A stretch of DNA of 64,000 nucleotides from Dictyophora rubrovolvata. Its lineage: Eukaryota; Basidiomycota; Agaricomycetes; Phallales; Phallaceae. Positions within the stretch are counted from its first letter, which is position 1; every line of letters starts with the position of its first letter. Shown here piece after piece: positions 15,205 through 56,911 of the stretch. A program made the translations under genes and the position numbers. The stretch is from contig CP114126.1 in assembly GCA_029959195.1 (NCBI GenBank), positions 1,116,001 through 1,180,000 of the forward strand. The letters are read 5' to 3'. Below the pieces are notes generated by a model that saw nothing but the letters and a program-made list of their open reading frames with translations, searched no databases and was not told the origin of the DNA.

Positions 15205-15447
15205 TCTGGTTGAAGCCGGGAAATCTCCGTAAAGGTAATTGTTCAAAACAGTATCATCGCAGAATTGTTTTATGTGATGAGATTAGTAAAGGGAGGTAGT
15301 GGAAAAACAGCACAACATTGTAATCACATATGACATGGATGATGATGATGACATACAACATATGTAAGCGCCAAATCAAGCCATAGAAACACTGTACGTC
15401 ATTGAAAAGTTAAAATAAGTCACGCCGTGACAAGGCTACCACCAGAA

Positions 15448-23999: not shown

Positions 24000-25887
24000 T
24001 TCTTTTGCGGTGTCGATGTTTTACTCGGCGGGCACTATGATATTAGATGCTGAATTTCGTTTAGAATCACAGAATTGTTTTGTAAATACCAACTTGAAGT
24101 AACAGTTTAAACAAACTACTTACTAGTAAATACATGTTACTACTAATACATATTAGGCGTGGATTGTCCCAATATTACTTGACGATTTTTGATGACCCCT
24201 GCTTGATATACAGCCAGCAGTTTTTCTCTGAATGCTCTGTGGAGTCCCCCCAGAGTGAGAGGGGACATAGTCCAGAACTGCATACATCTGCCGTGCCAAT
24301 TGATTTCATTGTACTGCTGACGCTCTTCAACAAAATTAAACCACACGCCCCGACTTTCCAAATGACGTTCTATTATTATTTGTTCAAAACCCAAATTCAA
24401 AACCCAAAATGCAACAAGAAGACTCGGACACTGATAGTACTAAGAAGTCAGTATATAGATGCACCTGCGACTTTTTTAATGAACGAAGAGTATCGATAAA
24501 GAGCGAATGACACACGCGAGAATTTTGACAAACTATTGACACATTTAAGCGAGGCTGGTAGGAGGAGGGAGGGCAGGCTGTCCTTCGGGCGTAACGTAGC
24601 ATGATGAAAGACCTCCATCAACCAGGAAATCGGTTCCCTATCAAAACGTATTTGGAATGCACGACGCAGGGGTGGTGATCAGAAATACCGTAATGTAACT
24701 ACTGTCATCACTTGCCACTAATATTGATTTTGAAAATCAATTCAAACTCTCAATATAACATAACCCACGAAATAAGGCAGATCGTGCAAGTTCTACGGCT
24801 TCTCCAAACCTTCCCATAGGTAAATGGACCAGACGACGTTGACGCTTCTCTTCAGTATTAAGGAAATCCATCAACAAGGCTGGACTGGAGCGTAAACTTT
24901 TGGGGAAGACGAAGAATCGATCACTGAAATGTCTCACGGGTCTTTAACGGACCACTGTGACGGGAGTGAGCATATACATAAAAGAGACACAATATAACAT
25001 ACGGGCATAAGGAGTTGATTCGGATTCCTTCACGAGCATGAACCATAGCGAGCTCACGAGTCATGGCCAAGACCGCACCCTTGGAAGCCGTATCTAAATA
25101 TGATAATGATACATCATGCAGAGGGGTGAATACAACAACTTACATGCAATTTGAGGTGTAGCTGCTCCTACAACAGATACAAAACTAGCGGTATTAATAA
25201 TACTACCCCCAGCGTGAAGGCCTTTCGATGCATCGGTAGGATTTTTACGCATTGCAATAATAGCGTATTTACTGCCCCACCAAACGCCTTTGACATTCAC
25301 CTGCATTGTAAGATCCCAGATGGATTCTTCTGTCTCTAAGGCAGTGGAGTCGTCTGGATGCATGATACCTGTTTTGGTCGATTCAGATAAGAACCTACAT
25401 AATACGCGACGGCTGGACGCTGTTACCAGCATTATTAAACTGAGATTTGAGTTAGATATAAGATGGATGATCAAAAATTAGTGGAGAACAAATACCATCA
25501 CATCCAATCTTCCAAATTTCGCGATCGCAGCGTCTACCAAAGCTTTGATATCGCTTTCCTTCCCAACATCAGTTTTGTGGACTAGAGTAATTGCATTGGG
25601 ATACAATTCGACGATACGTTTAGCAACGCGTTCTGCCTCAGGTACATTAATATCAGCAAGTACAACATTTGCACCTTCCGATGCGAACAAAATCGCTGAT
25701 TCAAGGCCGATTCCACTGATTTGAGCAGGGTAAGTGATCGGAATTAGATAAGAATCATTTTTTTTTGTTACTTACGACCCTGCTCCGGTGATTATGGCTA
25801 CCTAAAATAAAGCTGTTCACAAAAAAAACGAACGGAGGACGACGACCAAGACTCACTTTGTGCTGAAGGCGTCCTGACATTGTCGTG
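24000..25887. repeat. Right arm of the inverted segmental duplication
   Basis: Reverse complement of about 15448-17380. The distal end (about 24000) lies only some 85 bp beyond the F-box stop codon, and the proximal end lies at the SDR start codon. It lacks a block present near 17080-17150 in the left arm and has several small indels. Confidence 0.9.
24545..25880 (-). CDS. Short-chain dehydrogenase/reductase, right (intact) copy
   Basis: NAD(P)-dependent SDR on the minus strand, starting ATG at 25878-25880 and ending TAA at 24545-24547, with the same ten-exon structure as the left copy. The cofactor motif is canonical, TGAGSGIGLESA. FNNAG, INTASFVS and YTASKGAVLAM supply the Asn, Ser, Tyr and Lys of the active site. 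PMGRFGEAVELARSALFLAS, DDSSYITG and TDFLVDGG complete the normal C-terminal half. Every intron can be spliced with GT-AG ends, including the one whose donor is lost in the left copy. It resembles dehydrogenases of the levodione-reductase or 3-oxoacyl-reductase type; the substrate is not deducible. Confidence 0.88.
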
Positions 25888-26396
25888 ATAAGGCCTAGCG
25901 GCTCCGAGCAAGCGCCAATTGACGTAATCTGATTGCAAATTGTATGACGTATACGGTATGTTGCTTGTTGCTTGACGAACAACAAATTCAATAATTCGAT
26001 TTCAATTCGATTTAATTGCACACAATACGCAGAACCCGTCAACTCAGACTGGTATTTCCATTCGTGATTTCAAGAGGCAAATATAAGCAGATTCAATAGC
26101 GACTCCAGAGTCCAGCAGACTGCTCAAACCGGGATTCTGTTTGGAAAGATGGTAGTCGATCCACTGTCGAAGATGGAATATATTGAAAGTGGCGTTTTAG
26201 AGACAAGAGGAGTAGAAATTTCTTCATCAACTTGAAACTGCACTCTTGATTTGGGTAGACCATTTGTTGTCATCTGAACCAAACAAATATCTCCTTAGCG
26301 AACTAATCCTATTACGGTCTACCCCTCCTTGAATATACATAATGGCCTGAAATAACCCAAGATTGAAGACAACCGTTAGATCTCTATAATCCGTAT
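25888..26396. other. Intergenic between SDR and aminotransferase
   Basis: Upstream sequence of the SDR and downstream sequence of the aminotransferase. It contains an A/T-rich run with repeated ATTCGATTT words near 25990-26015. No gene seen. Confidence 0.4.
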
Positions 26397-36306: not shown

Positions 36307-37814
36307 TAATAATGCGCACGCGCACACACGCATGATGATAGCACGACCGGTCGGATCGATGAGTGTGGTATATTTGTTTGTTGCTTTTGTGTATTTTTTT
36401 GTGTTGCGTTTTTCAGCTCTGGCCTTTTTTGCTTTTTTTTTTTTGCTTTCATTTTTGACTTTCCCCTTTCTCCATGGCCAGATGCCCATTTGCCCTGATC
36501 CCCTACATGATTCATCGCACCGCCAACGGACCCCACTTCACTTGCCGTATCATCATATATCTTTCCCCGCGTGCCTACTATCATACCTTTACCGGTTCCG
36601 GAATGTACTACCGTTTTCTCTCCTCATGTTTTCGTTGATATATATCTGTGATGTCAACCTTGCACGTCTGTCCTACGCAATTTCATAATATTACACTTTC
36701 TGATTGTCAAAGCATTGAACCGCCGACTTTTTCTTTATTTATGTAACTCTTTGATATGTTTGTTATACTCTAAACTCTCCGCCGTTATGCTTATGGTTTC
36801 TGCATGAGACCTTAGATTCATCTATGCTCTAGTCGCTGAACGGTATATGAGAAAAACCACTGCCACGGCATCCGACCGAAAACCGAGTTCACTTGGCGTT
36901 CACCTAACACTGGTCAGTCGCGCTCTAAATGTCACACACGTAATGTCACGCATCACGATTTGGTGACCCGAATGCGTTGTACCTTGTGTTTTCCGAACCG
37001 CCACAAATTGATCATCGATCAATGCCTGCAGTGGCACGGAAGTCCGGAAGTTTGCTTATTGCTTTCAATGCCTGAAATTATTGATGTCAATTGAATTTAC
37101 AGTATGTATATGAGTTGGGGTCCTTTTGGTATTTCTCTTCCTCGAACTCTTTCGATGGACGTGTAGACTGCAGAGCGCTGCATAGAACTCTTTTCCGACG
37201 AACTCATCAACCGTTTCACCTTTACTCCAGATGCATGTACAAAAAATTTGGACGGTTCACATTATTCCTACTGCTTGGTATTCAAATGTGCCGACGTTGG
37301 CGCTCCTCGAATAGAAAAGGAAATGGGCAGCGGTGACACTGATTCCTCCACTCAAGTTGGTTTTAATATGAAAGATTATTAGTTGTCAAAGCCGGTGCAA
37401 TTTAATAAATCTCCCCAGGGGGTTAATGGGGGAATGGATTGTGCGCAGGCGATGTCAGTGCTGCCCATGCTGATTGCAATTAGGCCCTTGGATTTGGCGT
37501 TCTCGTAGGCGATTTGAATGAATAGCATTATCGTCCGCTGATGAATGACGTGGGGTTTACGGGTGCGCTCGCGTCCTCGTTGAGACTTTCGTGAGAGTCT
37601 CAAACAGCTTCGAAAGAGGAAGACGTTGTAAACATCCCCGCGGTGGCCGTCAGGTCCAATCTTTTAAGTACCTACGGTATTACTTATCTAGCCCAGACTC
37701 TTCCGGCCATAATCGTCGTCAAATTCGTTACGATGTAAATATGGCGTATCGTTTTCTCGAGCAGCGGAGTTATGCTACTATACATTACTATAACCCTTTG
37801 CCAGGTATCTCACC
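36307..37814. other. Intergenic; T-rich CDC14 3' region and a diverged repeat scrap
   Basis: The first 400 bp are T-rich trailer. At about 37185-37310 and 37740-37815 the sequence matches 41660-41790 and 41935-42010 imperfectly (for example TCAACCGTTTCACCTTTAC and TCGTTTTCTCGAGCAG). These look like old duplicate remains at the edge of the P450 repeat block. No gene was found. Confidence 0.45.
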
Positions 37815-38156
37815 GGCAGTGCCGAGCATCATGAGAGTCCAACAGCGCTGATGATGGATCTCATTTCTAAAACAAACAAAACCATTTATATTAATTCTGA
37901 TTTTGGGTTTAATATATCCCACCAATAGTCAGAATCCACGATCCGGGGGTTACTCAACTTTAAATAAAACACATAAATATTACCGCACAAGAATCATAAT
38001 ACGCATCTGTGCCACCCCCAGATGTAGGAAGTATATGAGTTATACTGTCACTGACATTTACAAAAATCAACTAAACAATTCTCACCAACTTTTTTAAGAA
38101 CGAGGTTTACATAGTGACGTACTTATCGTCTCGTCAAGTACCGGAATTCCTGAGTT

Positions 38157-40287
38157 TCATGTTTGACGCCGTCTGAACATCACTTCAGCAGTCATGTTAG
38201 GCATACAAGCCGTAGCTAGTGAGATATTCGGTGGGCGGACGCCTTCGTTCTCCAGCTTGATATCATAATTGAGTATAATGTGCGCCATCATTGCCTTCAA
38301 CTCGTTTGCAGCAAAAAACCGACCGGGGCTATCGCGTCAAAATGCATGTCACTTATTTTGCTCGTTGGGTTCTCGAGATAATAATACACTCACCATGAGT
38401 GTGTCCCATGACCGAAAGCAATGTAATCCAGAGAAGTGTTAACGTACTGATTGGTGGTGTTCAAATCCTCATGGGTTCTAATCTTTGCAAACCGGAAACC
38501 ATCAAATTTATTCCCCTCGGGGTATTTTTCATCGTCGCGGTGAATCGGGTATGCAGCAGCAGAAACAAGGGTTCCCTTCGGAATAAAAGTGCCGTCAGAG
38601 AAGGTAAAGTCTTTCAACGCCAGGCGGCTCAGGGAAGCTGTAGGGTAAAACGCATGCATGTTGATATTATGGAGGATGAATATATATGTACACTTACTGA
38701 ATCCAACCCCATTGTACCGCTGACTTTCTTTGAAAAAACTGTCCAATTTGTGCATTCTCGTCATCGCAACTTTTGTCCATCCGTCTTCCGCAATCACAGC
38801 TTCAATTTCCTCCCTGATTGGTTGTATATAATGCGGTTCGGCGGCAAGATGATAGAGAGCGTGAGTGAAACTCTGTTTTAATGATATGAATGTGAGTCTC
38901 TGCACAAACAAGTTGGCGAAACGAAGACACGAACCATACCACTTGTGTGAATGGACGCAAAGTTGAAAGCAACAACTCTCCTCGTCAGATTAGGAACGCT
39001 CAGTTCATCCGCGTCAGGGGCTACTTCTATCAGCCATTCCAAAAGATCAGACTAGCACATTGATCTATACGTATCCTTTGATGTTCATTTCAAGAAGGAC
39101 ATACTGGTTTATCAGGATAGTCCTGACCATACTCCTCCAGTTTTTCCCGCCGTTCTTTGATAACTGGACCGAGGAACTCTGCAGCTTTGGACATTGCCCG
39201 TGAGGTTGTAATTAGATATTTCACTACCAAACTATACAAGCCAGGGTTTGTCGAGTCAACCACTATCAAACCCGAACTCACGGCCTCAGAGATCTCGGGA
39301 AACGCATTATTGTTTTACGGCTTTTGCTCGCATGCATAGCAAAATTAATATTGACTTTGAGGAATTCCGGGTCACGACCTAAATATGACATAATGAAAGA
39401 TCGGTGTCACTGAGAGATAGAAATCATACGTACAGAGAGGCAGTCCGACAAAAATTCTGTTGGAAGCGCGAGCGACTATTTGAACCACCTTGGAATACGC
39501 ACGTACCGAAGTCCAATCTGCACAGTTAAATGTTATTTGGCACCCGGGATAGCGAGATAAATAATGAAATATACCTTCTGTCAAAGGGATATTGTCATCA
39601 AACGCTTCCTGGATTTCTCCTCGGAGATCGTCGAACAAATAGGCGAGGTTTTTGTTGAGATGTGAATGTATGACGCCAAGGTGGTATATATTGGTAAGAT
39701 CACCCAAAAGATAGTCAACGAAAAACAACTGGAAAAATCCTCAGGTTTATACGAAATGACATCGCAAAAGGAAAATATTCAGACCTCGTTCGCAAACCCT
39801 CTGTGTGACAGTATGTCGTCTGGGGCTTTCCGCAAATCATCGAGCTGATCTTGTCGGGCCACAATAACATGCCAGCGCCGATCATTATCTGGTATTCGGA
39901 AAGCCCCCTTTTGGTACTAAAATTCATATCTTAACCGAGAACGAGGACGTGAAAACAAAAAATATAAAGCAACACACCTTGTTATACCCAGCATAAATGA
40001 GATCGTGAGAGTGGTCATTGAATTTTTTCCCTGTAATATAAGCGGAAATAATATCACTGCCCCCTAAGGCAGGGATGTGAGCCTGGATAAAAGTGAATAA
40101 ACAATATTGCCTTTTGAAATGGGGTGATGCTTACGATTGGATCGGGTTTTAGAATCAAGAATGCTCCGTAGGAGAGTAGTATGGTAAGTAATGTGAATCC
40201 AATCCACGCGAAAGTCAAAGGAGGTTCATCGAATTGAAAGAAAAGGGAATAACTTTGAGGGGTGGCGGAAAAGTTCGTAGTAGACAT
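38157..40287 (-). CDS. Cytochrome P450, ent-kaurene-oxidase-like, left repeat copy
   Basis: A microsomal heme oxygenase on the minus strand. It starts MSTTNFSATPQSYSLFFQF, followed by a single membrane anchor FAWIGFTLLTILLSYGAFLIL. Further landmarks are HIPALGGSDIISAY, DWTSVRAYSKVVQIVARASN, EEYGQDYPDKP, THALYHLAAEPHYIQPIREE (I-helix), FFKESQRYNG (K-helix ExxR) and the heme loop FGHGTHSCPGRFFAANELK, with the cysteine ligand across an intron. The C-terminus is MTAEVMFRRRQT. All introns can be spliced, so the gene looks intact. The overall pattern fits the ent-kaurene-oxidase/gibberellin-type fungal P450 group, but the substrate is unknown. It is nearly identical to the gene at 50909-53065. Confidence 0.87.
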
Positions 40288-40393
40288 TATTATTCCCAGA
40301 CGAGGGTGTAGCCGGGCAAAGTGAAGTCTTTTTATAAGAAGCTGAAATGAATTCATGTAGCGCCGCGGTTTGTAGCTTGAGGATCCCATAGAG

Positions 40394-40554
40394 GAATGGC
40401 ACCATTAATGGGACCTATGGGTTATGTTTCGAATTTGGTACCATTTCAGTAGTAGTGCCAATTTCCCTATGTCATCGCATCGGCTAGGACCACTAGTGCC
40501 AAAAAGTACTGAAATGGTACCAAATTAAGGACGATTCAGGACTGCGCCATTCCT
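40394..40554. mobile_element. Short inverted-repeat element (MITE candidate) in the left repeat
   Basis: The segment starts GGAATGGCACC and ends with GCGCCATTCC. Inside, AATTTGGTACCATTTCAGTA is mirrored by TACTGAAATGGTACCAAATT, a 20-bp perfect inverted pair. The corresponding place in the right repeat (about 53163-53250) has unrelated sequence. It has no coding capacity and no clear target duplication was found. Confidence 0.5.
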
Positions 40555-41167
40555 TGTTGGGTGTGTAATGAAATAGGAGTTGAAGCTTCATATATCATGT
40601 GCAAGATTTAATGGAAGTGCCCTAGTGCGATATTAAGCAACGTAAGCGACTCGGAAATCTAACCAACCCAAATGCAACGCATACGCATCCATCTAGGCAT
40701 TCATCAAGGAGAACCCTTTCATAATAAATGGGAGACAACTCAAAGAGGAAAGATGTAGAACTGTCGTCCAAGTCATCGAGAATACCACGGCAACCAAACG
40801 CTGAGCCACGTGCACATTTTCGAGTTTATTTGCGGGCAGTTTTGATGGCTTTCGCTGAACCGCCCTATGGAGAGAACGTGTCCTGATTCGAACAGATATC
40901 AGGCTCAGCAATGAGCTAATGACTTCTCGGCGAGCCACGTAAGATTGGACACTTTCAATGCAAAGCTAGGGCCGCCGGAGCTGTGATCGGTACAGCGGAC
41001 AAACACGCCGTGTATTTGGATAATTTATAACCCATCGAGATTTGGTTTCGACCAACAGGCTTGTTAGAATCTTGAACCAGAAAGAAACTAATAATATTTG
41101 TCATTGTTTCAACCTTGTCACATGTCACATGTCACACGTGTCACCTCGGCTTCCACGCTTGATTCAT

Positions 41168-41494
41168 ATGGCGACCTCGAACACAAGCAAAGACTGCTTA
41201 TCTTGTCGACTGATTTCTTCCCTGACGCTGACGGGAATTGGAATCTATGCACTTAGACAAACCCGACCCAGATTTCCAGGTTCTCCTGCAGGTAAGGCAC
41301 TACTTATGGCAGTTGGCACAGGTGAGTCAAGAACGTTCAACTTCAAACTTGAGAGAGTGCGTCTTCTCACTTGGCTTATTGTAGGTCTCGCTATAATAGG
41401 AATAATTCAGGGCATAGATATTGTCAAAGATCCTAATTGGCAGGATAAATCAGACGCTACTGTTCTGTCAACGAAGCACAGAACCTCAGAATGA
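41168..41494 (+). CDS. DMAC1/DUF4536-like small mitochondrial membrane protein, left copy
   Basis: The family member in animals helps assemble the distal membrane arm of respiratory complex I. Two exons, 41168-41321 and 41385-41494, give 87 residues. The diagnostic N-terminal motif KDCLSCRLISSLTLTGIGIY has the CxxC pair followed by the first transmembrane helix. A second hydrophobic stretch, VGTGLAIIGIIQGIDIV, crosses the intron. The C-terminus is a polar tail ending KHRTSE. The ATG at 41168 is the first in frame before the motif. An almost identical gene is at 53901-54225. Confidence 0.75.
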   Translation: MATSNTSKDCLSCRLISSLTLTGIGIYALRQTRPRFPGSPAGKALLMAVGTGESRTFNFKLERVRLLTWLIVGLAIIGIIQGIDIVKDPNWQDKSDATVLSTKHRTSE

Positions 41495-41626
41495 AGCGCG
41501 GCTCTTGGCGAAACACAATTTCATTCATTAAAAACATGCGTTGCCATCGATCTACATATAATAACCCCAATATTGATACCAATAGATTTACCGTAAGTGA
41601 TTCTTCTTATAATGCGAAACCAGAAA

Positions 41627-41839
41627 CTAATCAAAATAGTTTTCAGTAATAATACAATTCTTTGCGAGCTCTGCGGGGATGTCGATCAACCGCTTCACCT
41701 TTACGCCGGATACAAGCATCACCTTCTTTGGGAGATTCGCATTATTCCTATTTTTTTGTACTAAAATGTGCTGACAGAGCGCAGCGGACACAGCCCCATG
41801 CGCTCCATGCAACCATCCCGGGGAAATAGCATGAGACAC
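41627..41839 (-). pseudogene. Possible GH3 C-terminal remnant
   Basis: Reading on the minus strand, KKVMLVSGVKVKRLIDIP, then AELAKN, lines up with the end of the GH3 enzyme (TFELEGEAVQISTFPQSS) in spacing and in the last bases, where CCCGCAGAGCTCG is shared. Upstream there is no GH3 catalytic sequence, so this is at most a C-terminal scrap. A related diverged copy lies near 37185-37310. Confidence 0.35.
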
Positions 41840-43969
41840 CAGCTGCTTCTGTCATAGACATAGCTAAACAGATCTCCCCGTTGTTTTCTCTTCAGGAACA
41901 AATATGGGGAGGATATCCTGAAACGATGTATGACATAGCAGCGCATCGTTTTCTCGAGCAGTAGGGTTATGCGCCTAGTTTACACTACTACGGCACTTTG
42001 CCAAGTATCTTACCTACGGACATTTGACACCGACTGAGCAGCGGGCACCGGTTGATCTGTTCCCGGAACGGCATGTCTGTCATATATATGGTTGCTATGG
42101 ATTATATCAATACCAAACCATACATGGAACTCCCGGTTGCTGCACGAACACAAATTGAGGAAGAACCGCCGATAACGCAATCAAGATGATCGGTCGACTT
42201 TGACTGGTGTGAACTCTTCAATTTGGCTGATCAGACCCGGACCCGGCGGGATTTCCTACTCATGTTTCGGAAAGCGTTTAGCAACGAATGCAAGTGGGAT
42301 CCGCGCAAAGACGTTATGCATCCTCTATCGCTGTCGACTGCTATTCGATGGTTGCGTGGTGTAAGACCACTTGGTGCTAACTCGTCCCAAACATGATCAG
42401 GGAACTTTGCTTCAGGTCCTGCCGGGGCCATGGTCGTAGACTTTATTCGTCTGAGATTTTCTCACTTTCCCCTTATACCTGTTCTATACTACCCATTTCA
42501 TTTTACCAGTTTATAGTTGTATGCTCCGAAAATCATCTCAGCTCTTTCAAGTGGAATATGCGTTCCACCGAAAGAGCTCGAACATTGTATTTATAATGAA
42601 TTGTTCCTCGAATTAATAAAGTAGTATTTTAGTATCTAAACACTCAAATTTTCCTCTATTATTTTCGATGATAATGTTTACTCTTCATTATTGTACACAT
42701 TGTCTCATTCTAGGAGTCGCTGTTGCTACACTCCACTCCAACTCGATACAGCATTCACACACATCGGCTTTGAATTTTGAAATTACTGGCGGTGATGTGG
42801 AAATTCGTTCAAGATGGTCTTTCTTTTGCTGTGTAAGGGCCGTCCAAATTTATTGATCGATCGGCGCGCGAGTACGAGATTCCGGGTGCACTGTCTTCAT
42901 GACCCTAAATACGGTGGATTATACGTACGTGAAAAATAGTCAAATGAGATGTCTATATTGAACCACTTACTGATTAGCCACAGGGGGATGGAGGTGAAGG
43001 GGTTTAGGGATGGGCTCGAAATACGGAGGTTCGGGTGAGGCGAGCATGATGGATGATTGAACGTTGGACGTATCTAAGACCATTCTCGAGACTTCAGGTG
43101 ATGCATAATTCAGAGAATCCCGTCGTTTGAAGGTGGGGGATCCAAATCATTAGACAAATTCTTTCAAACCGTTGGAGGGTCGAATATGTCATGGAACTTC
43201 GGAGCCTGGCGGCATGGGTTCCGAGCTGAACGTTTCTCCTATTCGAAGAACAAAGTCACCAAACCGAGACTCATCTTTATCAGACGCGGTTCGCGTTTGT
43301 GGCATGGCGATTGCATGAATTTGCTGTCTTGATTGGCGGAGATGCTTGCAAGTCGAGCAGACTGCGTGGATGCAGAGCCTGCATCAGACACACTGGAGTT
43401 AGACACGCTAATGGCTTAAATGCTCCCGGTGTTTGTCTCTCGAGTCGCCATGAAGCAAAAAGTTTGAGTTTTTGAGTCAGGATCTTCAAAGAATTATAGT
43501 AATGGAGATTGGAGACTCAATTGCAAACAGCAAGCCTACGCACGAACACACCATTAAACGAGATAATCATTCCGATATCGCTCACCTTGGGCGATAACTG
43601 ATATTGATATTCCACCTACGATAGTCGTCAAAGGTAGCGCAAGTGCAGCAGCTGCCCAGCGCCTAAATCTCTGGTGACAGTTACTCCGTCACGTGACAAG
43701 CACTACCAAGCGGCCTTCTCCAATATTTTACAGTTTCGTCGGTGTCAGTTCGACATGAGGCTTGGTCTATTTAGAGACCGCGAATTCTACCAACCATATG
43801 CTCGATAGTTTGCCGAGCATCTTTCAGATTACTACCCGGTGGGAGATCTTCCTGCTATTGGTGAGAAATTCAAGAATCAAGTCTAGACCGTGTCAAGTGA
43901 ATGCGTGTCAGGCTATCGTTCACTGGCCAATTAGGTACGTAAAGGATCGTATATAGTTCCTTGCACTGG
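41840..43969. other. Accessory gap without a supported gene
   Basis: About 2.1 kb between the left repeat and the decaying P450. Short frames such as 42231-42431 (minus) and 42668-42856 (plus) show no motif. 41935-42010 repeats part of 37740-37815. Likely decayed sequence. Confidence 0.4.
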
Positions 43970-46155
43970 ATGATCCTGATCACCTTTTGCGCTACCATGT
44001 TCGTGATCATCCTGCAGCTGATTTCTTTGTCCCTCGCGTTCGTATATTTGGCAGACCTTCTATGTAAACGAAAGTATCGACCGCCTAAAGGAATGCCAAG
44101 CTTCTTCGTCATCCTCGCTTCGAAGTTTTGACTTACCTTTGGACACATTTTGATAGGTTTGAGACTACCCCCTGGACCTTCCGGAAGACCTATCGTTGGG
44201 CATTATATGAAAACTTTCGATCGGAACCTAATGAAAGAATGGAGAGAGAAATATGGTATAGTCCTACTAGTAACGTTTTACTTTCAGATTGAGAAACCCC
44301 TAATTCTTGCATAATATAATATTCAAGGTAACATTGTATCGGTTCATGCTTTTGGAATGCCATTCGTTTTCGTATATTCCGATGAGATTGCACAAGAACT
44401 TTTTACGGCAAAGCGTGGTGCGACGTACTCTGACAGACCCCCCTTTCACATGGCTATCCTGTAAGTTATTTTATGTGAGGGACCGACATTTTCGAACTAC
44501 TATGTCATACAGATTGGGCTGGGACTATAACATAGCTTTTATGCCATATGGAAATTGGTGGAGACGTCATATCAGGGCGTTTCATCAGTTTTTCAATTCC
44601 AAAGCTGTGGCGGCATTTGAACCGGTTCAGGTGAAATCATGTCGGTGAGAAAGATCGTAACCTCCCTTCACCGTATTTGCCTAAACAGTTTAATAAACTT
44701 CAATGAGATCACTGCTTCAGAACTTGCTCGAGACTCCCGCTGAATTTGAAGAACATATGAAATTTTCTGTCAGTCAAATCATAATGGACGTATGTATATG
44801 ATTTTTGGAAGCTTACTCTTTTGAGCTGCTAATATCGTCCGTCATTTTTTCAACCAGGTAACGTATGCTATCGATATTAGACCAAAAAAGGACACTTTTC
44901 TTGATATGGTTTATTTGGCCCTTGAAGGGCTTGATCCAACTGTATCACCCGGTCAATGGCTCGTGGACATCTTTCCAACACGTGAGTACCTCACTCTCAA
45001 CTTGACTTTCGGTTTGTGACCAATTTTTAGTAAAACCTGTGCTCGAATGGGTTCCAGTATTAGGAGTCAAGGAGGTTATTACGAAATACAGAAAAATAAC
45101 CCGAGATGTTGCCGATGTTCCATTCAGTATTGTGAAGGTAACAAAATTCAAGACCACTAAAATGGGTTTTTGTCTCACAGCCAAACAGAATCGTGAGGAG
45201 CCGGATCATTCTTTTGTATCGATATCCTTGGAAAGAATGCGCAAGCTCAAGGATCTCTCTTTACCCGACGAAGAAGTAGTGATAAGCAACACGGCGGGAA
45301 TGGCATATGCAGCAGCTGCAGGAACTGTATGTAATCACTATTTGGAAAAGAAAAGAAAAAATTAGTTAAGGTTTTACCCAGATTATATCCTTCCTTCTAA
45401 ACGCGATTTTGTCCTGTCTGTTATTTCCTAAAATTCAACACAAACTACATGACGAGCTCGATAGAGTTCTTGGTGACCGTTTGCCAACCTTAGCAGATCG
45501 GGATGACTTGCCTTATTTCAATGCATTTTGCTATGAAGTGTTGCGCTGGAGACCCAGCCTACCTTTGGGTGTGCCCCACGCTGCATTGGAAGATAATGTC
45601 CTTGGAGAGTATTTTATACCGAAAGGAAGTATTATCGTTTTAGATTCATTGTATGACTTCCTTTTTCGGTGCTATTTTTCTCTACTAACTCTCGGCTAGG
45701 CAAATTCTACGCGATAAAAAATATGGTCCCAACCCCGAAGAATTCAATCCAGAAAGATACTTTCAACCCGGTATCCCTTTTCCTACAGAACACTTTGGTT
45801 TTGGACGAAGGTCAGTGTGTGCTTTGATATCCTCGGATGTGGATTACACCGCCCTGATTATTGACGTCTGGACAAAAGAATCTGCCCGGGTCGCTTCTTC
45901 GCTAACAATACGATTTTCCTTTTAATGGCATCGATGTTGAAAGCCTTTGAATTTGCACCGATGAAGGATAAAAATGGGCTTGACATACATATTTCAGAAG
46001 AGAATACTGACTCGCCTTTAATTCTGTTGGTTTTTAGTTATTTTCGATATTCTCGCTCATATGATTACAGTTCTCCTGTACCTTTCAAATGCTCTATCCA
46101 TCCTCGTTCTTCTCATGTCAACGACCTCATTTCTCCTGAGGATTCGAATGCATAA
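43970..46155 (+). pseudogene. Cytochrome P450 of a second subfamily, decaying
   Basis: Clear P450 landmarks run along the plus strand: anchor MFVIILQLISLSLAFVYLAD, hinge LRLPPGPSGRPIVGHYM, FGMPFVFVYSDEIAQELF, C-helix NWWRRHIRAFHQFF, FCYEVLRWRPSLPLGVPH (ExxR), FNPERYFQPG and heme loop FGFGRRICPGRFFANN. Several defects are visible. The first intron has GA instead of GT after CCGCCTAAAG (44085-44089). The frame is lost around 44705, before RSLLQNLLETP. The junction near 45137-45180 cannot be spliced in frame. The I-helix AGxDT aspartate is missing (AAAGTIIS). It most resembles the P450 at 5272-7449, not its immediate neighbours. Confidence 0.8.
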
Positions 46156-46582
46156 CTTCATCGCGAGGCATAAGGTGCAGTTTTATGTCTTTCCGTCGTT
46201 AGTTTGCCTTGAAGTTTAGGTTCGCTACTCGCTACACAGAGATTGATACAGCCCAGGCTGTCTGAAGAACTACATATGTGTAACCCGAGAAATTCACTGG
46301 AAATATTATTCCGTTTTCGCCGCCAGAAGGGAGTCTGTATACTCTTCAAGTTTGCTTAAGTCGATCGGTTTCCAAGAATGGAGGATAGTACGAAACTCAC
46401 GGTGAGACGACACTCCAATGGTTAGCTTCATCAGCTATATCAAAACCATATATCAATCAATTTCCCGTGTTATCATGTTTCTTGATACAGAAGCTCAGTG
46501 CGCGAGGTGTGTGCATTATAATGATCCACGATACAGCTTGGCAAACGGGTTTCCGCATTTTTATTTATTTGCTGGTTCGGAT
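46156..46582. other. Downstream of the P450 pseudogene, nothing recognised
   Basis: No gene or clear repeat seen. Short minus-strand frames lack motifs. Confidence 0.35.
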
Positions 46583-46941
46583 TAGTGATGGATCCAATTC
46601 GGTTTGTATTCAGTTGAAAGTCCAAGTTTAAGTTCAAATCCAAATTCAGGTTTTGTTCAGTTTGATTTGGGAACTGAACCGGATCTGAGATCGTCCAGAA
46701 TATCGAACTGGTTTGGAACCGGCCAAATCACCTATAGTCTTTTATAGAATGAAAATGGATTCCAAGCGCTGCCGATCCCGATACAAAGAAGCGAAGCAGG
46801 CTGTCTTTGGATCGTTCCGCAGCCTTGCAGCTTCTTAAGATGGTTGAATGAACTGCGGCAAACCACTCAAATTGCGATGGGCCGCCAAGTACGAACCAGT
46901 TTCAGACTGCACTGAACCGAACCAAACTGGATCCATAACTA
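46583..46941. mobile_element. Inverted-repeat element of about 360 bp (hAT-like MITE candidate)
   Basis: Begins TAGTGATGGATCCAATTCGG and ends with CCGAACCAAACTGGATCCATAACTA. The two ends are inverted repeats with few mismatches, and TAGTGATGG/CCATAACTA resembles hAT-type termini. TTCGGAT stands directly before the left end and again 5 bp beyond the right end (46947-46953), so a near 8-bp target duplication is possible. The interior is rich in AAGTTCAAAT and AACCGG words and has no transposase. Confidence 0.5.
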
Positions 46942-47655
46942 TACAATTCGGATGCTGGATTCTTTTTCTCGTTGACAAGTTTAAAAAGGGTTTGACTTCT
47001 TTTTCTTGTCAGCATTCAGCCGTTCGGACCGGACAAGGGCCATGGCTTGTTGAAGTTATGACACGCGGAATGACATTGCGCAATGGCTCACCAGGTGCAG
47101 TGATGGAAGGTTTATGCACAGTTTCCAATGAACGACGTGATTCAGATCGTGCCGAAGTGATTCTCTTTACTATTTGGGAACTGATAGGTTCTGCAATCCT
47201 GATTCTACAAAATGGTTGGAAAAATGTGTGCAGCTGTATGGCTGCCGAGACTCGTGTGCTGGCTGGACGGCAGTGCCTCTGATCTGAAATTAATTTGAGT
47301 TGGAAGGCTTCTTCCCACCGGATGTTTGCCCAAAGGTTGTCCATTCAAAAATCACTGGAAATTAATTGACCGTGAATCGCAACCAATCAAGGAACGTTTG
47401 TGGTTAATCGATAAAAATTCTTGTCATCGTTAATTTATACTCATGTCAGCACGACCATCTCATCGGCTCCCGGGGAAAATGCATTCACCTTCTTCTCGCA
47501 TAACCGGAATGGCTGCCTATCGGGTTCGCAGGCTATCGGGCGTATACTTCAGAAAAAGTACTCCTGTATAGGGAAACAGTTTTTCCATCGCTCTTCGTGA
47601 ATCCTTATAAAGACTTGACCTTGCCTTGACTGTCTGGCAACATCTCCCCCTGACA
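46942..47655. other. Upstream region of the third ent-kaurene-oxidase-like P450
   Basis: About 700 bp. An open frame on the minus strand (47009-47344) overlaps one on the plus strand. Neither has a recognised motif. It presumably holds the P450 promoter. Confidence 0.35.
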
Positions 47656-49826
47656 ATGTCGTCTTCTACGAATTTTTCCGCCAACCCGCAAAGTTATTTC
47701 CTTTCCTTTCAAATCCACGAACCTCCTTTGACATTCTCGTGGATTGGGTTCACATTGCTTGCAATAATACTCTCATATGGGGCATTTTTGATTCTAAAGC
47801 CCGATCCATACGTACGGATCTTCTCATCTCGATACAACGACAGGCGTTGACACCGTATTATTATTTAGACTCATATACCGGCTGTAGGAGGTAGTGATAT
47901 TCTCTCTACTTACACTACAGGGACGCAGTTTTACAACCACGCTCTAAAACTTCTCACTGCCGGTTACGACAAGGTCTGTGCACAGATGCTTCCATTTCTT
48001 TGGCTGTTTAGGCTGTTTCTTCGGTTAACATATAGTATAGTACAAAAATGGCGTTTATCGAATACCGGATGACCACCGTTGGCATGTAATTGTAACTCGA
48101 GCGGATCAGATCGAAGAATTACGGAAAGCTCCTGACGATGTAATGTCATTCAGAGAGTCTGTTAACGAGGTTTGATCTAACTTCTTGTGATCATAATTTG
48201 ACCTTGAATATTTAACTTTCTGAAAGACCCTTTTCGTTAAATATCTTCTGGGACCTACTATCTCCACTAATGAATACCACGTCGGTGTCGTACGTTCGCA
48301 ACTTACCAAAAACCTCGCTCACTTGTTCGACGATCTTCGAGAAGAGATTCAGGTTGCATTTGATGATAATATCTCTTTAACAGAAGGTATGTGGTGTATG
48401 GTGTAGCACTCGTGTCGCTATCTCAGGCCCACCATGCAAATATTTACCAGATTGGACTCCGGCAAACGCATATGCCAAGGTTGTTCAGATCGTCGCCCGT
48501 GCTTCTAACAGAGTTTTCGTTGGACTACCTCTTTGTATGTATGATTTCGACATCTCAATGATCCCGTTTTCATACTCATCCCGTAGGTCGTGAATCGGAG
48601 TACCTTCGAGTCAATATTGAATTCACGAAGAGTGTGACCGACGGCCGTAATATCTTAATACGCATACCGGGATTTTTGAGACCGTGAGTCCTGGTTAATA
48701 TCTAGCTACTAAAACTCATTTAACTTTATTATTAAGTTTGGCAGCAAGATATTTGACCAAAGTTCCACAATCAATTGCCATAGCTTCGAAGTACCTTGGT
48801 CCCATCATTGAAGAACGACGCCAAAAAATTGAGGAGTATGGCCAGGACTATCCGGACAAACCTGTACGTCTTCAAATAAGTTTCACTGAAGTAGTGTTAT
48901 ATGTATTTCGATAGAATGATATTTTATCATGGCTAATGGACGAAGCCACCGGCGATGAATTAAGCGTACCCAACCTGACGAACAGAGTTCTTACTCTCAA
49001 TTTCGCGGCTATTCATACAAGCAGCATGGTTTGTGTCTTTAATTTTCTTATTGTCTGTGTGTAACTCACGTGTGCTTCCGTACACGAAACAGAGCTTCAC
49101 TCACGCTCTGTATCATCTCGCCGCCGAACCGCATTATATACAACCGATTAGGGAGGAAATCGAAGCCGTTATTGCCGAAGACGGATGGTCAAAAGTTGCA
49201 ATGACAAAAATGCACAAATTAGATAGTTTTTTCAAAGAAAGTCAACGATACAACGGGATTTCATTCAGTAAGTCCATAATGTTTGCAAATGATATTGAGT
49301 CTAAACTTTAATCGACACGCGTTCATTCTGCAGTTTCCTTAAACCGTCTTGCATTGCGAGACTTCACCTTTTCAGACGGCACTTTTATTCCAAAAGGAGC
49401 CTTTGTTGCTGCTGCTTCATACCCGATTCACCACGACGATGAAAAATACCCCGAGGGGAATACATTTGACGGTTTCCGGTTTGCAAAGATTCGATCTCAC
49501 GAAGGTTTGAATACTACAAATCAGTTTGTTAATACCTCTCCGGACTATATTCCTTTTGGTCATGGAAAACATGCATGGTGAGTTACAACACGGGGAAATG
49601 GTAGTGGCAAAGCGTTGGTGAGTTTATGCTAACTCCATGTACTATATCTCAGCCCAGGTCGATTTTTCGCCGCAAACGAGTTAAAGGCGATGATGGCTCA
49701 TCTTGTACTCAATTATGACTTCAAAATGGAGAGTGAGGGTGTTCGTCCTCCGAACAAGTCAATCGCATTGGCCTGCACGCCCGACTTGACTGCTAAAGTG
49801 ATGTTCAGGCGGCGACATCAATCATG
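47656..49826 (+). CDS. Cytochrome P450, ent-kaurene-oxidase-like, third paralogue
   Basis: Same family as the two repeat-borne P450s but opposite in direction and more diverged. It starts MSSSTNFSANPQSYFLSFQI with anchor FSWIGFTLLAIILSYGAFLIL. Landmarks are HIPAVGGSDILSTY, DDHRWHVIVTRADQIEELRK, THALYHLAAEPHYIQPIREE, FFKESQRYNG and the heme loop FGHGKHACPGRFFAANELK. The C-terminus is LTAKVMFRRRHQS. Every intron has usable borders, and no stop or frame break was seen. The duplicated flanks of the other two are missing here, so it arose from a separate, older duplication. Confidence 0.87.
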
Positions 49827-50554
49827 AAATCCGGTGTTTATTACTGTTGAATACTAGTACTTTCATCTTCAAATGATTTGGTAATCATGAGTGTGGTAAT
49901 CAATTTATGTACAGTATGTTCCTTAGACTACTAGTGGCGAAATCTCTATCTGCTGCTGGGGCACGTCGGCTGTTGCTTTCACCTTCAATCCATCCGCAGT
50001 ACCTCCTTTTCTTAAAACAGTTTTTTCATCGCATTTTCAGTCAATTGACTCTTATCATCCTTCGGTTTGGCGATTTCCATATCTCTCATCCCAAGCTTGA
50101 CCTCGAGATCTTGAAGCTCTGTTTCGAAAACCCGACGCTAGCTCATATGACGATGTGAAGGCATTTATCGATCATCACCATATACTTATACATATTATTC
50201 CAGGGATCTTTGAGTGACATTGAGGTCGTTCGGAGGGCCAAATCAAACAATTCTCGGCAGTGAACCCCCCTTGAAGCATTGAATATTGAATGATAAGACA
50301 AGTTTGGAACTTTTACGTTATTTGTAATTGATTGTGCATGCATATACATAGTATATAATATGAAGTTCAAATCAAGATTAAGGTTCAAATTCGCAATTCT
50401 TACTTTCTGGGAATATTTAAGGACAGGTTCACCAACGACAGAACTTTCAATGGATGCCAAAGAACGTAACGACTTATCACTTCTGCAAGGTTGTTTACTA
50501 CTGCTTTGCTGGTCCAAGTGCGTGGAACGACGCCGGCTTGCATGAGATCCGAAC
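49827..50554. other. Intergenic, no gene seen
   Basis: Holds the P450 3' end and about 600 bp of sequence. Overlapping short frames on both strands (50143-50630) look like chance. Confidence 0.4.
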
Positions 50555-50908
50555 GCACAGCGCCGAGCATCATGAGAGTCCAACACCGCCGATGATGGAC
50601 CACCGCCGGTCTCAGTTCAAAAACCAACAAAACCAGTTATATTGATTTTGATTTTGGGTTTCATATATCTCACTAATAGTTGGAATCCACGATCCGGGTT
50701 TCCTCAACTTTAAATAAAACACATTACCGCACAAGAATCATAATGCGCTCGCATATAAATATATCTGTACCACCTCCAGATGTAGGAAGCATATGGGTTA
50801 CATTGTTCACTGGTACTGGCAAAAATCAACTAGACAATTCTCAGGATTTTTTTCAAGAATGGGGTTTACATAGAGTGACGTACCGTCAAGTACCGGAATT
50901 CCTGAGTT

Positions 50909-53065
50909 TCATGTTTGACGCCTTCTGAACATCACTTTAGCAGTCATATTAGGCATACAAGTCATAGCCAGCGAGATATTCAGTGGGCGAACTCCTTCGT
51001 TCTCCAGCTTGATATCATAATTGAGTAAAATGTGCGCCATCATTGCTTTTAACTCGTTTGCGGCAAAAAATCGACCAGGGCTATCGCGTCAAAATGCATG
51101 TCACTTATTTTGCTTGTTTGTTTCTCAAGATAATAATACACTCACCATGCGTGTTTCCCATGACCGAAAGCAATGTAATCCAAAGAAGTGTTAACATACT
51201 GATTGGTGGTGTTCAAGTCCTCATGGGTTCTAATCTCTGCAAACCGGAAACCTTTAAATTTATCGCCCTCAGAATATTTTTCGTCATCACGGTGAATCGG
51301 GTATGAAGCAGCAGAAACAAAGGTTCCCTTCGGAATAAAAGTGCCGTCAGAAAAGGTAAAGTCCTTCAACGCCAGGCGGCTCAGGGAAACTGTAGGGTTA
51401 AAACGCATGCATGTTAGTATTATAGAATATGAATATGACATGCTACTCACTGAATCCAACCCCATTGTACCGCTGACTTTCTTTGAAAAAACTGTCCAAT
51501 TTGTGCATTCTCGTCATCGCAACTTTTGTCCATCCGTCTTCCGCAATCACAGCTTCAATTTCCTCCCTGATTGGTTGTATATAATGCGGTTCGGCGGCAA
51601 GATGATAGAGAGCGTGGGTGAAACTCTGTTTTAATGATATGAATGTAAGTCTTTGTATAAACATGTCGGCGAAACAAAAACAAAGACACAAACCATACTA
51701 CTTGTGTGAATGGCAGCAAAGTTGAGACCAACAATTCTCCTCGTCAAATTAGGAATGCTCAGTTCATCCGCGTCGGGGGCTACTTCCATCAGCCATTCCA
51801 AAAGATCAGACTAGCACATTGATCTATATATATCCTTTGATGTTCATTTCAAGAGGACATACTGGTTTATCAGGATAGTCCTGACCATACTCCTCCATTT
51901 TTTCCCGCCGTTCTTTGATAATTGGACCGACGAACTCCGCAGCTTTGGCCATTGCCTGCGAAGCTGTAGTTATATATCTCGCTACCCAACTAAGCAAGAA
52001 GATAGAAGTCAGGGTTAGTCGAGTTAACCGAGTTGATACAATATCAAACCGGAACTCACGGCCTCAAAAATTTCGGGAAACGCATTATTGTTTTACGGCT
52101 GTCGTTTACATGTATAGTAAGATCAATAAGCAGTTTGAGGAATTCTGAGTTACGACCTAAACATGATATTATGAAAGATCGGTGTCACTGAGAGATAGAA
52201 ATCATACGTACAGAGAGGCAGTCCGACGAAAATTCTGTTGGAAGCACGGGAGACTATCTGAAGCACCTTGGAGTACGCATGTACCGAGGTCCAATCTGTA
52301 CAATTACATGTTATTTGGCACCCGATATAGCGAAATAAATGGTGAAATATACCTTCTGTCAGAGGGATATTGTCATCAAACGCTTCCTGAATCTCTCCTC
52401 GAAGGTCGTCGAACAAATGGGCGAGGTTTTTGGTGAGATGTGAACGTATGACGCCAATGTGGTATTCATTAGCAGGATTACCCAAAAGATAGTCAACGAA
52501 AAGCAACTGGAAGAATCCTCAGGTTTATACGAAATGACATCGCAAAAGGGAAATATCAGACCTCGTTCGCAAATTCTCTGAATGACAGTACGTCGTCTGG
52601 GGCTTTCCGCAAATCGTCGAGCTGATCTTGTCGGGCCACAATAACATGCCAACGACCATCATTATCTGGTATTCGGAAAGCGCCTTTTTGGTACTAAAAT
52701 TCATATCTTAACCGAGAACGAGGACGTGAAAACAAAAATATAAAGAAAAGCACACCTTGTTATACCCGGCATGAATAAGATCATGAGAGTGCTCATTGAA
52801 TTTTTTTCCTGTGAAATGAGCGGAAATAATATCACTGCCCCCTAAGGCAGGGATGTGAGCCTGGATAAAAGTGAATAAACAATATTGCATTTTGAAATGG
52901 GGTGATGCTTACGATTGGATCGGGTTTTAGAATCAAGAATGCTCCGTAGGAGAGTAGTATGGTAAGTAATGTGAATCCAATCCACGCGAAAGTCAAAGGA
53001 GGTTCATCGAATTGAAAGAAAAGGGAATAACTTTGAGGGGTGGCGGAAATGTTCGTAGTAGACAT
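50909..53065 (-). CDS. Cytochrome P450, ent-kaurene-oxidase-like, right repeat copy
   Basis: Close twin of the gene at 38157-40287, with the same exon layout. It starts MSTTNISATPQSYSLFFQF and keeps the membrane anchor, DWTSVHAYSKVLQIVSRASN, EEYGQDYPDKP, THALYHLAAEPHYIQPIREE, FFKESQRYNG and FGHGKHACPGRFF with the heme cysteine. Differences from the twin are scattered substitutions, including a changed stretch after VGLPLCR (NSEFLKLLIDLTIHVNDSRK here) and a longer intron near 51990-52060. All introns remain spliceable, so both copies look functional. Confidence 0.87.
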
Positions 53066-53900
53066 TATTATTCCCAGACGAGGGTGTAGCCGGGCAAAGT
53101 GGAGTCTTTTTATAAGAAGCTGAAATGAATTCATGTAGCGCCGCGGTTTGTAGCTTGAGGATCCGATAGGAACCCAGTCCGGTTGTGCGGGAGGCAGCCG
53201 CGGGAAGAAGATGCGGACTTCTCTCGAGAAACCGGTGGAAGATAATGCAATAGGAGTTGAAGCTTTATAGCTTCATACATTATATATCATGCATGTCATG
53301 TGCGAGACCTAACGGAGTACCCTGCGATATCAAGCAACGTAAGCGACTCGGAGGTCTAACCAACCCAAATTTAACGCATACGCCTCCATCTAGGCGTTCA
53401 GTAGCCACATAAGTGCATAGGTTTTTCGGTTTAAGGACCCCGCCAAGTGGAACCTTTTTATAATAAATGGGAGACAACTCCCCTTTGATGTGGAACTGTC
53501 ATTCGAGATGATTGAATTGGTACCACGCTAACCAAAGATATTCGACAAATGCTGAGCCATGCACACATTTTCGAGTTTACCTGCGGGCAGCTTTCTGCAG
53601 TTTTGGGCTTTCGCTGAACCGCCCTGTGGAGAGAATGCGACCCGATTCGAACAGATTGATATCAGGCTCAGCAATGAATTAATGGCTTCTGGGTCACATA
53701 AGAGCACATAAGATTGTGCAATGCAAAGCTAGGGCCGCTGGAGCTGTGACCAGTCCGGTGAGCAAACACGCCGTGTCGTTTGGATAATTTAAAACCCATC
53801 GAGATTTGGTTTCCACCACCCGGGGCTTCAATTGGAAGAGAAGCTAATCGGATTTGTCATTCGTTTTCCTGTCACATGTCACACGTGTCACTTGATACTT

Positions 53901-54225
53901 ATGACGACCTCGAACACAAGCAAAGACTGCTTATCCTGTCGACTGATTTCTTCCTTGACGCTGACGGGAATTGGAATCTATGCACTTAGACAAACCCGAC
54001 CCAAATTTCCAGGTTCTCCTGCAGGTAAGGCACTACTTATGGCAGTTGGCACGGGTGAGTCAAGAACATTCAACTTCAAACTTGAGAGTGCATCTTCTCA
54101 CTTGGCTTATTGTAGGTCTCGCTATAATGGGAATAATTCAGGGCATAGATATTGTCAAAGATCCTAATTGGCAGGATAAATCAGACGCTACTGTTCTGTC
54201 AACGAAGCACAGAACCTCAGAATGA
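53901..54225 (+). CDS. DMAC1/DUF4536-like small mitochondrial membrane protein, right copy
   Basis: Two exons, 53901-54054 and 54116-54225, give 87 residues. It is identical to the left copy except for three visible substitutions (A2T in MTTSN, R to K in TRPKFPG, I to M in GLAIMGI). It has the KDCLSCRLIS motif and the same polar end KHRTSE. It is convergent with GH3, 165 bp away. Retention of two intact copies of a presumed housekeeping factor is unusual. Confidence 0.75.
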
Positions 54226-54390
54226 AGCGCGGCTCTTGGCGAAACACAATTTCATTCATTAAAAACATGCGTTGCCATCGATCTACATATAATAACCCCA
54301 ATATTGATACCAATAGATTTACCGTAAGTGACTCTTCTTATATTGCGAAACAAGAAACATCAAAAGGGTTTTCAGTAATAATACAATTCT

Positions 54391-56911
54391 TTACGAGCTC
54401 TGCGGGAATGTCGATATTTGAACTGCTTCCCCTTCTAGTTCAAACGTCGCTGACAATACTGCTGGCGTATCAACTACCAAAGTGTATGTTCCCGGGTATA
54501 CCCACAAGTTCCCGTTCGTGTCAGTGCGTGCAACTGACCCTAACGTGACCGGAAGAGAAGCTGTGCTCCCCTTTTGTGGACCGATGTCGTGCAATCGGGT
54601 AAAAGCGACCAGTTGCTTGTTGGGATGAGGCGTTGGACCGCCGTTTCCGCTTATAAACAAAAGGGCCGCGTAGTCCGACGTAACATGTCCCGTATTCTCA
54701 ACTTCAACTTCAAACGTATCGAACACCGCTAGGTCTTTAGGACCGCTGGTCGCCTTGCTGACAAGCGATCCGATATCATATCGCTTGGATGGTGACGATT
54801 TCCATGAAAATTTGAACGTGGTATAGTGCAATCCGTGTCCGAATTCATACACTGGCGTGCCGGTATACCATTTATAGGTTCGGCCTGGACTTGTGGCACT
54901 CGGACGGAGAGCCATATCGGTCATTGGCAAACTGATGTATGACGCTGGATATTGCGTAACAGGGAGTCGACCAGCAGGTGCTGCCTTTCCCCGAATGATG
55001 TCAATTATGGCGGTCCCTCCACTTTGACTTGGATATCCTCCCCAAATGATAGCGTTGACCTATATAAGTAGATGGACAGCTGAATTTCAAATTCGTTACC
55101 CCCGGGAAAATACTAATTTGCAAACCTGAGAGTTCGATTTGAGTTCCGTATCATCAACTTGGCCTCCACCGAATTGCAATACAACCAAAGGTTTCTTTAC
55201 GGCAGCAAGCTGAGCAATCAAATCAAGCTGATTCCCGGGCCAAGTGATCGCTGTTCTGTCGTTACCCTCAGCTTCAACCGAATCATCAATACCTCCTGCA
55301 TAAATCACGGCATCTGCTTCTTGGGCCGCCGCGACCGCAGCTGCGAAACCACTGGTGTCATTACCAGAGATCGTTGTACCTGGCTGGAAATTTACATCAA
55401 AACCAGCCGAAACGGCCGCCTGAATTGGGCTAATCAAAAATGGTGCTATGCCCTGGTAATTGCCCTGCATCTGTCTCGTCGCGTTGGCGAAGGGTCCCAC
55501 AATGGCCAGCTTTTTAATTGATCCTTTCAGTGGCAAAGTTCCGTCGTTCTTCAGTAAAACTATTCCTTCCACAGCTGCTTGATAAGCGAGCTGTTGAGCT
55601 TGAGGAGTATTGACATCGGCCCAACCAAGTTGTCGATAAGGTTGGTTTTCTGGTGGGTCAAAGTATCCGAGCCTTTGTAAAATAAAATACTTGGTCAGCT
55701 TTCTGATAAGAGTTTTATATTTTTAAACAACTTACCGCACGAGAGATGCATACAAACGTGTCAGAGATTGCTGGATTTGGGAAACCTCTACAAGAGACTG
55801 GTTCAACGCCGCTGGCAATTGCTGGGAATATGTACTTCCACAGTCGACATCCGCACCGGCATTCATCGCGACCGCGGCCGCTTCCGTCAGTGTAGCAGTA
55901 TAACTATGGCCATTGAAGATGTTGTTGATGGCATCGCAATCCGAGGTAACCCATCTATCTTCACCAAAACCCCAGTCGTCCCTTAAAATGGACTGGAGAA
56001 GATACGTGTTAGCACAAGATGGAACGCCGTTAACCGCGTTATAGCTGCACATAACCGAAGCGACTTTTGCGTCTCGCACGCAGCTTTGGAATTGGGGCAG
56101 GTAGTATTCTGATAAATCCTGCGTGGAAATAATGGCGTTGTAGGCGGTTCGGATGTTGCCCTCCCAGTTTTCTAGGTCGTACCCTGCAAAATGTTTGCAA
56201 TCTGCTCCGACCTTAAAGTATGGCTTTGGATCGATTCCGCCCTGAAGGCCTTGCACCAAGTTGTAAACGTATTGGGATGTTCGATAAGCGTCTTCTCCTG
56301 GCGTTTCCTGACCACGACCCCAGCGAGGGTCTCTAAACCCATTTATGTTCGGAGTGAAAAAGTCCAATCCAGCCTTTTGTATATATATCTCATTGAGCTT
56401 TGCCCGTGATGTGCTAGAGGACACCCACCTTGCCAGCGTTGTTGAATGCTCTTGCTTCAGTGCTAATCACGGTGGCCACTTCTTTGATTAGCGGATCATC
56501 AAAGGCCGCACTCATCAAGATAGGCTCGGGAAATGATGTCGCGAAACTGAACTCGCCGCTTGCCGAGAAGTTTACTCCTGGACTCAACGCGACGCCGTGC
56601 TATTCAAACGTTTTAGTCTCCTAGCACACTTTTACGCCATTGTGTCTTACCAGTGCTTCAGACCACCACTGATACGGGGGTATTCCCAGTCGAGAAACGC
56701 CTGGAGACTGGTTAACAGTATTCGCCGTCAATTCTTCAGTTGTAAATTGCTCAATCAGAGCGCGAGCTCGGGTTATAGCATCTTTGGACGTGTCGCAAAC
56801 GGCATTGCCGTTTAAAGGCGAGGACGTGCAGTCGGGAAAGGAGTATTGAAATTGGCCTAGAGCGAAGGGTATAATGCTCAATAAACCAAGTAATTGTCTG
56901 GGAGACTGCAT
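54391..56911 (-). CDS. Secreted GH3 beta-xylosidase
   Basis: An extracellular glycoside hydrolase of family 3 that releases xylose from xylo-oligosaccharides. Exons on the minus strand are 56651-56911, 56429-56599, 55736-56373, 55126-55672 and 54391-55059, giving 761 residues. A signal peptide (LLGLLSIIPFALGQF) leads to FPDCTSSPLNGNAVCD, the bxl-type N-terminus. Then come NINGFRDPRWGRGQETPGED and KHFAGYDLENW, and the nucleophile in WVTSDCDAI (about D289). Family-3 C-terminal markers are LLKNDGTLPL, GNDRTAITWPGNQ, YEFGHGLHYTTF and a fibronectin-III-like end. The CDCDA-type pattern favours beta-xylosidase over beta-glucosidase. It has no damage and is of normal length. Confidence 0.9.

Follow-up and report, generated by a model that had tools for sequence, protein, structure and literature searches.

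Genes that are not transposons can move through a genome as DNA. Passages of PMC2869330 describe such transposed genes in Arabidopsis, flanked by repeats that are mostly genic, and cite long target duplication in Helicobacter pylori (Nobusato et al. 2000). In Phanerochaete chrysosporium, clusters of locally duplicated cytochrome P450 genes keep their intron layout (passages of PMC1184071), and patchy near-identity of diverged duplicates is a feature of interlocus gene conversion between segmental duplicates (PMC3790853). Here we describe a locus of the basidiomycete Dictyophora rubrovolvata that resembles each of these systems in part. It consists of two blocks of about 3.9 kb, A and B, each with a P450 gene and a DMAC1/Dmo2-like gene, in a stretch of 64,000 nucleotides of contig CP114126.1 (assembly GCA_029959195.1, positions 1,116,001 to 1,180,000), hereafter the window, whose many short introns mark it as eukaryotic DNA.

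As in insertions with long target duplication, a gene-bearing segment appears to lie between long direct copies of its target; unlike the cited H. pylori case, the locus is eukaryotic and nuclear, has an identified donor 12.7 kb away (block B, 88.4% identity) and shows an old divergence. It shares with the Arabidopsis genes, as those passages describe them, a non-transposon gene that apparently moved at the DNA level and has repeats on its flanks, and differs from them in having two genes per block and a local donor on the same contig. The locally duplicated P450s with conserved introns recall the P. chrysosporium clusters of PMC1184071, except that here an unrelated mitochondrial gene is doubled too, and the copy resembles an insertion, not a tandem neighbour. 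Patchy near-identity is common to our locus and the duplicates treated in PMC3790853, although here it concerns one pair, with two tracts supported at silent sites. Among the matches listed on DMAC1/TMEM261/Dmo2, fungal P450 gene conversion and long target duplication, no title names a DMAC1 duplication of this kind.

We consider it likely that block A arose from block B by DNA-mediated copying and was inserted, with a long target duplication, into a sequence here termed X through template switching or the repair of a break. The features that bear on this reading are the following.

37817..41686, plus strand: block A, the probable inserted (derived) copy of P450 and DMAC1 (self-BLAST, alignment, flanks)
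50558..54415, plus strand: block B, the probable source copy, which adjoins and overlaps the end of a GH3 gene (self-BLAST, alignment)
37206..37814, plus strand: X1, left copy of the putative duplicated target, ending 2 bp short of block A
41685..42014, plus strand: X2, right copy of the putative duplicated target, starting at the end of block A with a 2-bp overlap, AT
54391..54415, minus strand: tail of a GH3 beta-xylosidase gene, its last 7 codons and stop, inside block B (open reading frame (ORF); 7vc6 alignment)
41662..41686, minus strand: broken relic of this tail in block A, reading STSPQSSQ, stop lost

Comparison of the window with itself by BLAST, a check suggested in the preliminary description of this DNA, recovers both blocks in the same orientation at an offset of 12,741 bp (E = 0.0 for the two main pieces, far above chance), together with an inverted P450 copy. 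The blocks have in common one P450 gene of 11 exons, one DMAC1/Dmo2-like gene (PF15055), gene order, introns and spacers. The direct duplication of about 3.9 kb reported in that description is thus real, its coordinates being off by 2 to 6 bp. In dikaryotic fungi an assembly can contain mis-joined haplotypes or false duplicates, and one block could in principle be such an artefact; the 12% divergence, the different flanks, a dispersed repeat present in A only and the ordered structure of the junctions make this very improbable.

The edges of block A carry copies of a single sequence, X1 and X2, which the preliminary description did not mention. These align with 126 of 161 columns identical (78.3%), in two stretches. 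Both X1 and X2 meet the edges of A to within 2 bp; as we read the junctions, A shares the dinucleotide AT with both parents at the right one, and at the left one some 2 bp belong to neither. When the same geometry was placed at 128 positions across the window, only two placements exceeded 25.6 bits (60.8 and 58.1), both overlapping the flanks of A; among 100 single-base shuffles of X2 the top score was 22.9 bits. Measured apart, the own flanks of B gave 20.2 bits and those of the inverted copy, P450-C, 29.2 bits (an 18-bp match). Genome searches, which covered 28.24 Mb in 11 contigs and scored the best candidates only, found no copies of X besides X1 and X2.

This arrangement bears on a plain tandem duplication, in which unequal crossing-over would have been followed by the insertion or rearrangement of 8.9 kb, containing P450-C and a fourth P450, between A and B. 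The shared orientation of the blocks at 12.7 kb would suit such a history, and the P. chrysosporium clusters are ascribed to tandem duplication and rearrangement in passages of PMC1184071. We regard it as rather unlikely: repeats at the edges of A only are not predicted, the flanks of B share nothing notable, and a further insertion, placed precisely at the junction, would be needed.

The identity of X1 and X2 does not differ from that of the spacer between the P450 and DMAC1-like genes of the blocks (407/523; Fisher p = 1.0), as expected for one event. The same comparison speaks to a reading in which X was already tandem and A came to lie between the two units through recombination with an intermediate, circular or linear. 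Block B would still be the source, so that the two accounts overlap. A recombination intermediate has been proposed for the transposed Arabidopsis genes, for which passages of PMC2869330 prefer repeat recombination over target duplication; there, of 25 transposed genes whose parent site is known, 11 have flanking direct repeats of at least 15 bp. At the present locus the common divergence of X1/X2 and the spacer suggests one age, and no X beside B turned up in the genome search as a partner for recombination, so that a pre-existing tandem X seems improbable as well.

Several observations weigh against insertion with target duplication. The two copies of X align over two stretches only (90 and 71 columns), with a middle part of unequal length (609 versus 330 bp overall), and their divergence exceeds that of the silent A/B sites taken together outside the homogenised tracts described below (p = 0.04). 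The identity of X gets no support either, Pfam giving no match for two pieces of it. X is probably a gene relic; the label 'kinase-like gene relic' was dropped, as Pfam found nothing and the genome search matched it to none but X1 and X2.

The direction of copying is indicated by the GH3 gene, whose end inside block B had also escaped the preliminary description. The solved xylosidase 7vc6 aligns through residue 220 of 222 of the query, which corresponds to its own residue 741 of 743. In A the matching 25 bp have lost the stop and read Ser in place of Phe. Because the right edge of B lies inside the last codons of GH3 and A holds the broken relic, and because, independently of this, both edges of A carry copies of one sequence, we infer from the sequence that B was the source and A the insertion. 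The gene itself, placed at 54391-56466 on the minus strand with a provisional upstream limit, is GH3 beta-xylosidase-like, with 7vc6 and 7vc7 as its best-scoring solved relatives.

In the proposed course of events, a copy of B with its introns would have entered X, in the same orientation, at a point that before the insertion lay about 8.5 kb upstream of B. The insertion would have duplicated part of X, leaving A between X1 and X2. This could have happened during replicative repair, if synthesis departed from X, used 3.9 kb of B as its template and then re-entered X farther upstream; an equivalent route would be the filling-in of long overhangs at a break that had captured a copy. Template-switching replication and the filling of a staggered break are indistinguishable at this locus. 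Capture by a transposon with terminal inverted repeats was rejected, since the best minus-strand matches between the 200-bp ends are 8 bp for A (E = 0.45) and 7 bp for B (E = 1.8); so was retroposition, all ten P450 introns and the DMAC1 intron being kept. The copies would then have diverged, a dispersed repeat would have replaced part of the region upstream of the P450 gene of A, and DMAC1 and the 5' end of the P450 gene would have been homogenised, probably by gene conversion. If this reconstruction holds, one genome suffices to tell in which direction, and probably by which route, a small block of genes was copied, with the truncated tail of a neighbour marking the source and the duplicated target marking the landing site.

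The genes of the blocks, with the paralogue lying between them, are as follows.

38157..40287, minus strand: P450-A, 11 exons, 519 amino acids (aa), open (gene model; PF00067 163.6 bits)
50909..53065, minus strand: P450-B, 11 exons, 519 aa, open (gene model; PF00067 161.8 bits)
47656..49827, plus strand: P450-C, 11 exons, 521 aa, open, an older inverted paralogue (gene model; PF00067 170.3 bits)
41168..41494, plus strand: DMAC1/Dmo2-like gene A, exons 41168-41321 and 41385-41494, 87 aa, CxxC (CLSC)
53901..54225, plus strand: DMAC1/Dmo2-like gene B, exons 53901-54054 and 54116-54225, 87 aa, CxxC (CLSC)

The identity of A and B amounts to 88.4% (3302 of 3734 ungapped columns) and is very uneven, from 68% to 100% per 100-bp bin of A, with 40-45% in two bins (40400-40599) where the dispersed repeat of A stands in place of B sequence. 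Columns 40393-40605, the region swapped by this repeat, were dropped before region and tract counts, and columns 40386-40605 before counts of C-to-T changes. The spacer between the P450 and DMAC1-like genes matches at 77.8% of sites, about 22% being different; the P450 introns match at 516 of 569 columns, the P450 3' side at 285 of 326, the DMAC1 intron at 59 of 61, and the DMAC1 3' flank up to 41600 at all 106. The description of the blocks as near-identical therefore suits DMAC1 and a few other tracts, not the block overall.

Measuring the divergence of the blocks had also been suggested, and it does not bear out a recent event: besides the spacer, the P450 genes of A and B differ with dS 0.183 and dN 0.061 (Nei-Gojobori), and there is no CpA excess among C-to-T changes. 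The rates by context are 0.065 for CpA, 0.064 for CpC, 0.094 for CpG and 0.087 for CpT. Ageing by classical repeat-induced point mutation was accordingly rejected as an explanation, CpG being slightly highest. Because the spacer is only 77.8% alike, we do not read the duplication as a recent event; it appears to be an old, ordinary, DNA-mediated one.

Two of the near-identical tracts, both probably homogenised, are listed here with the dispersed repeat.

41168..41600, plus strand: tract T3, DMAC1 and its 3' flank, 8 differences in 431 columns, none at 41399-41600
40046..40384, minus strand: tract T2, P450 5' end, 3 differences in 339 columns
40391..40540, no strand assigned: dispersed palindromic (MITE-like) repeat, about 100 bp upstream of P450-A, with other sequence in B

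In a simple run permutation, which is not GENECONV, the longest run of identical silent sites (145 sites, 41362-41600) was equalled in none of 2000 permutations, and the second (84 sites, 40112-40323) had p = 0.0015. With non-coding sites alone the first tract, then of 129 sites, was still equalled in 0/2000. We find gene conversion a somewhat better explanation of the tracts than constraint, given that introns and 3' flank are near-identical as well. Some results point the other way. At non-coding sites alone the second region becomes marginal (62 sites, p = 0.046; 59 sites, p = 0.067). The identical run in exon 9, 168 bp long, has p = 0.0005 over all sites and is not among the six longest silent-site runs; it was rejected as a conversion tract for its few silent sites (22, with 1 difference). 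Moreover, gene conversion is not fully separable from constraint on the DMAC1 3' region.

The second DMAC1 could have been kept by dosage selection, as the preliminary description offered; in that account selection alone would lie behind the near-identity. This is a question separate from the movement of the block. The proteins agree at 84 of 87 residues and both genes are open while the spacer is 22% different. However, the coding sequence is no better conserved than the intron (2 of 61 sites differ) or the 106 bp of 3' flank (none differ), and the 3 replacement and 3 silent changes between the DMAC1 genes reveal no significant shortage of replacements (binomial p = 0.18). Positive evidence for dosage selection is thus missing, and we hold this account for quite unlikely. 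A general caution follows: a single near-identical gene in a duplicated block is not by itself a sign of recent origin or of dosage selection, both of which homogenised tracts can mimic.

The dispersed repeat of A has six other places in the genome, 68-72% alike. At the corresponding upstream site a 42-bp match (E = 4e-4) suggests that P450-C shares the state of B.

The two DMAC1-like genes score 38.9 and 39.8 bits with PF15055, against a cut-off of 27. Their proteins have CLSC at residue 10 and, in a simple hydropathy scan, a clear hydrophobic stretch at about 39-66 and a weak one at about 10-29 that overlaps the CxxC; in yeast Dbi1 the CxxC precedes the first of two membrane segments (passages of PMC11850723). 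Against solved structures DMAC1-B found no relative up to E = 1. Six-frame genome searches with the protein and the PF15055 profile returned none but these two genes among the best candidates scored. An apparently single-copy DMAC1 has thus been doubled, and the simplest and likeliest reading is that it travelled along with the neighbouring P450 gene, so that the hitch-hiking proposed earlier stands as the simplest account without its recent date.

The label 'complex I assembly-like' used for these genes rests on the human name. According to passages of PMC11850723, human DMAC1 was found with complex I intermediates, and Tim17, Tim22 and Cox20 are the proteins on which the yeast homologue, YDL157c (Dbi1), works as an oxidoreductase. 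Since the yeast homologue acts on these substrates, complex I assembly may, by analogy, not be the main task of DMAC1 in this organism. We speculate, with considerable doubt, that the insertion doubled a single-copy gene for a mitochondrial inner-membrane oxidoreductase along with a P450, and that the pair has been kept by conversion of coding parts while the promoter region shared by the two genes diverged, so that each gene would now exist in two copies under different regulation.

The P450 models were built by hand from a three-way alignment of A, B and C. All three have 11 exons in the same order with GT-AG introns, and all pass the PF00067 cut-off of 22.8 bits. P450 hallmarks are the heme-ligand Cys in FxxGxxxCxG and an ExxR motif. 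The heme motif is complete in each gene, FGHGTHSCPG in P450-A and FGHGKHACPG in P450-B and P450-C, and ESQR is present in the models; the codon for the heme-ligand Cys of P450-A is interrupted by an intron. The earlier impression that both P450 and both DMAC1-like genes are intact agrees with the open models and with the PF00067 and PF15055 scores.

P450-C, which the preliminary description missed, was seen in the self-comparison as an inverted match of roughly 73% at about 47.7-49.8 kb, between blocks A and B. It differs from the A and B copies with dS 0.875 and 0.923 (Nei-Gojobori). A tblastn search over the window found no DMAC1 near it, with nothing better than E = 0.3 beyond the two known genes. 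With P450-C as outgroup and 14 ambiguous sites set aside, the branches of A and B show replacement to silent changes of 38:21 and 26:27, respectively. Both have fewer replacements than neutral (p = 0.013 and p = 4e-6), with no significant difference between the branches (p = 0.13). Both P450 genes therefore appear, from these counts, to have been under constraint.

A fourth P450-like gene lies at 44304-46152, between block A and P450-C, with PF00067 matches in two of the four ORFs tested; the window self-comparison gave no nucleotide match between it and A, B or C. Relatives of the P450 family of the blocks, 36-69% alike by matched exon, occur in the same genome at C5:336768-341495, which looks like another small cluster. 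A second duplicate pair in the window, 15447-17056 and 24286-25889, is inverted, 94.6% identical and 7.2 kb apart, and contains short-chain dehydrogenase-like ORFs.

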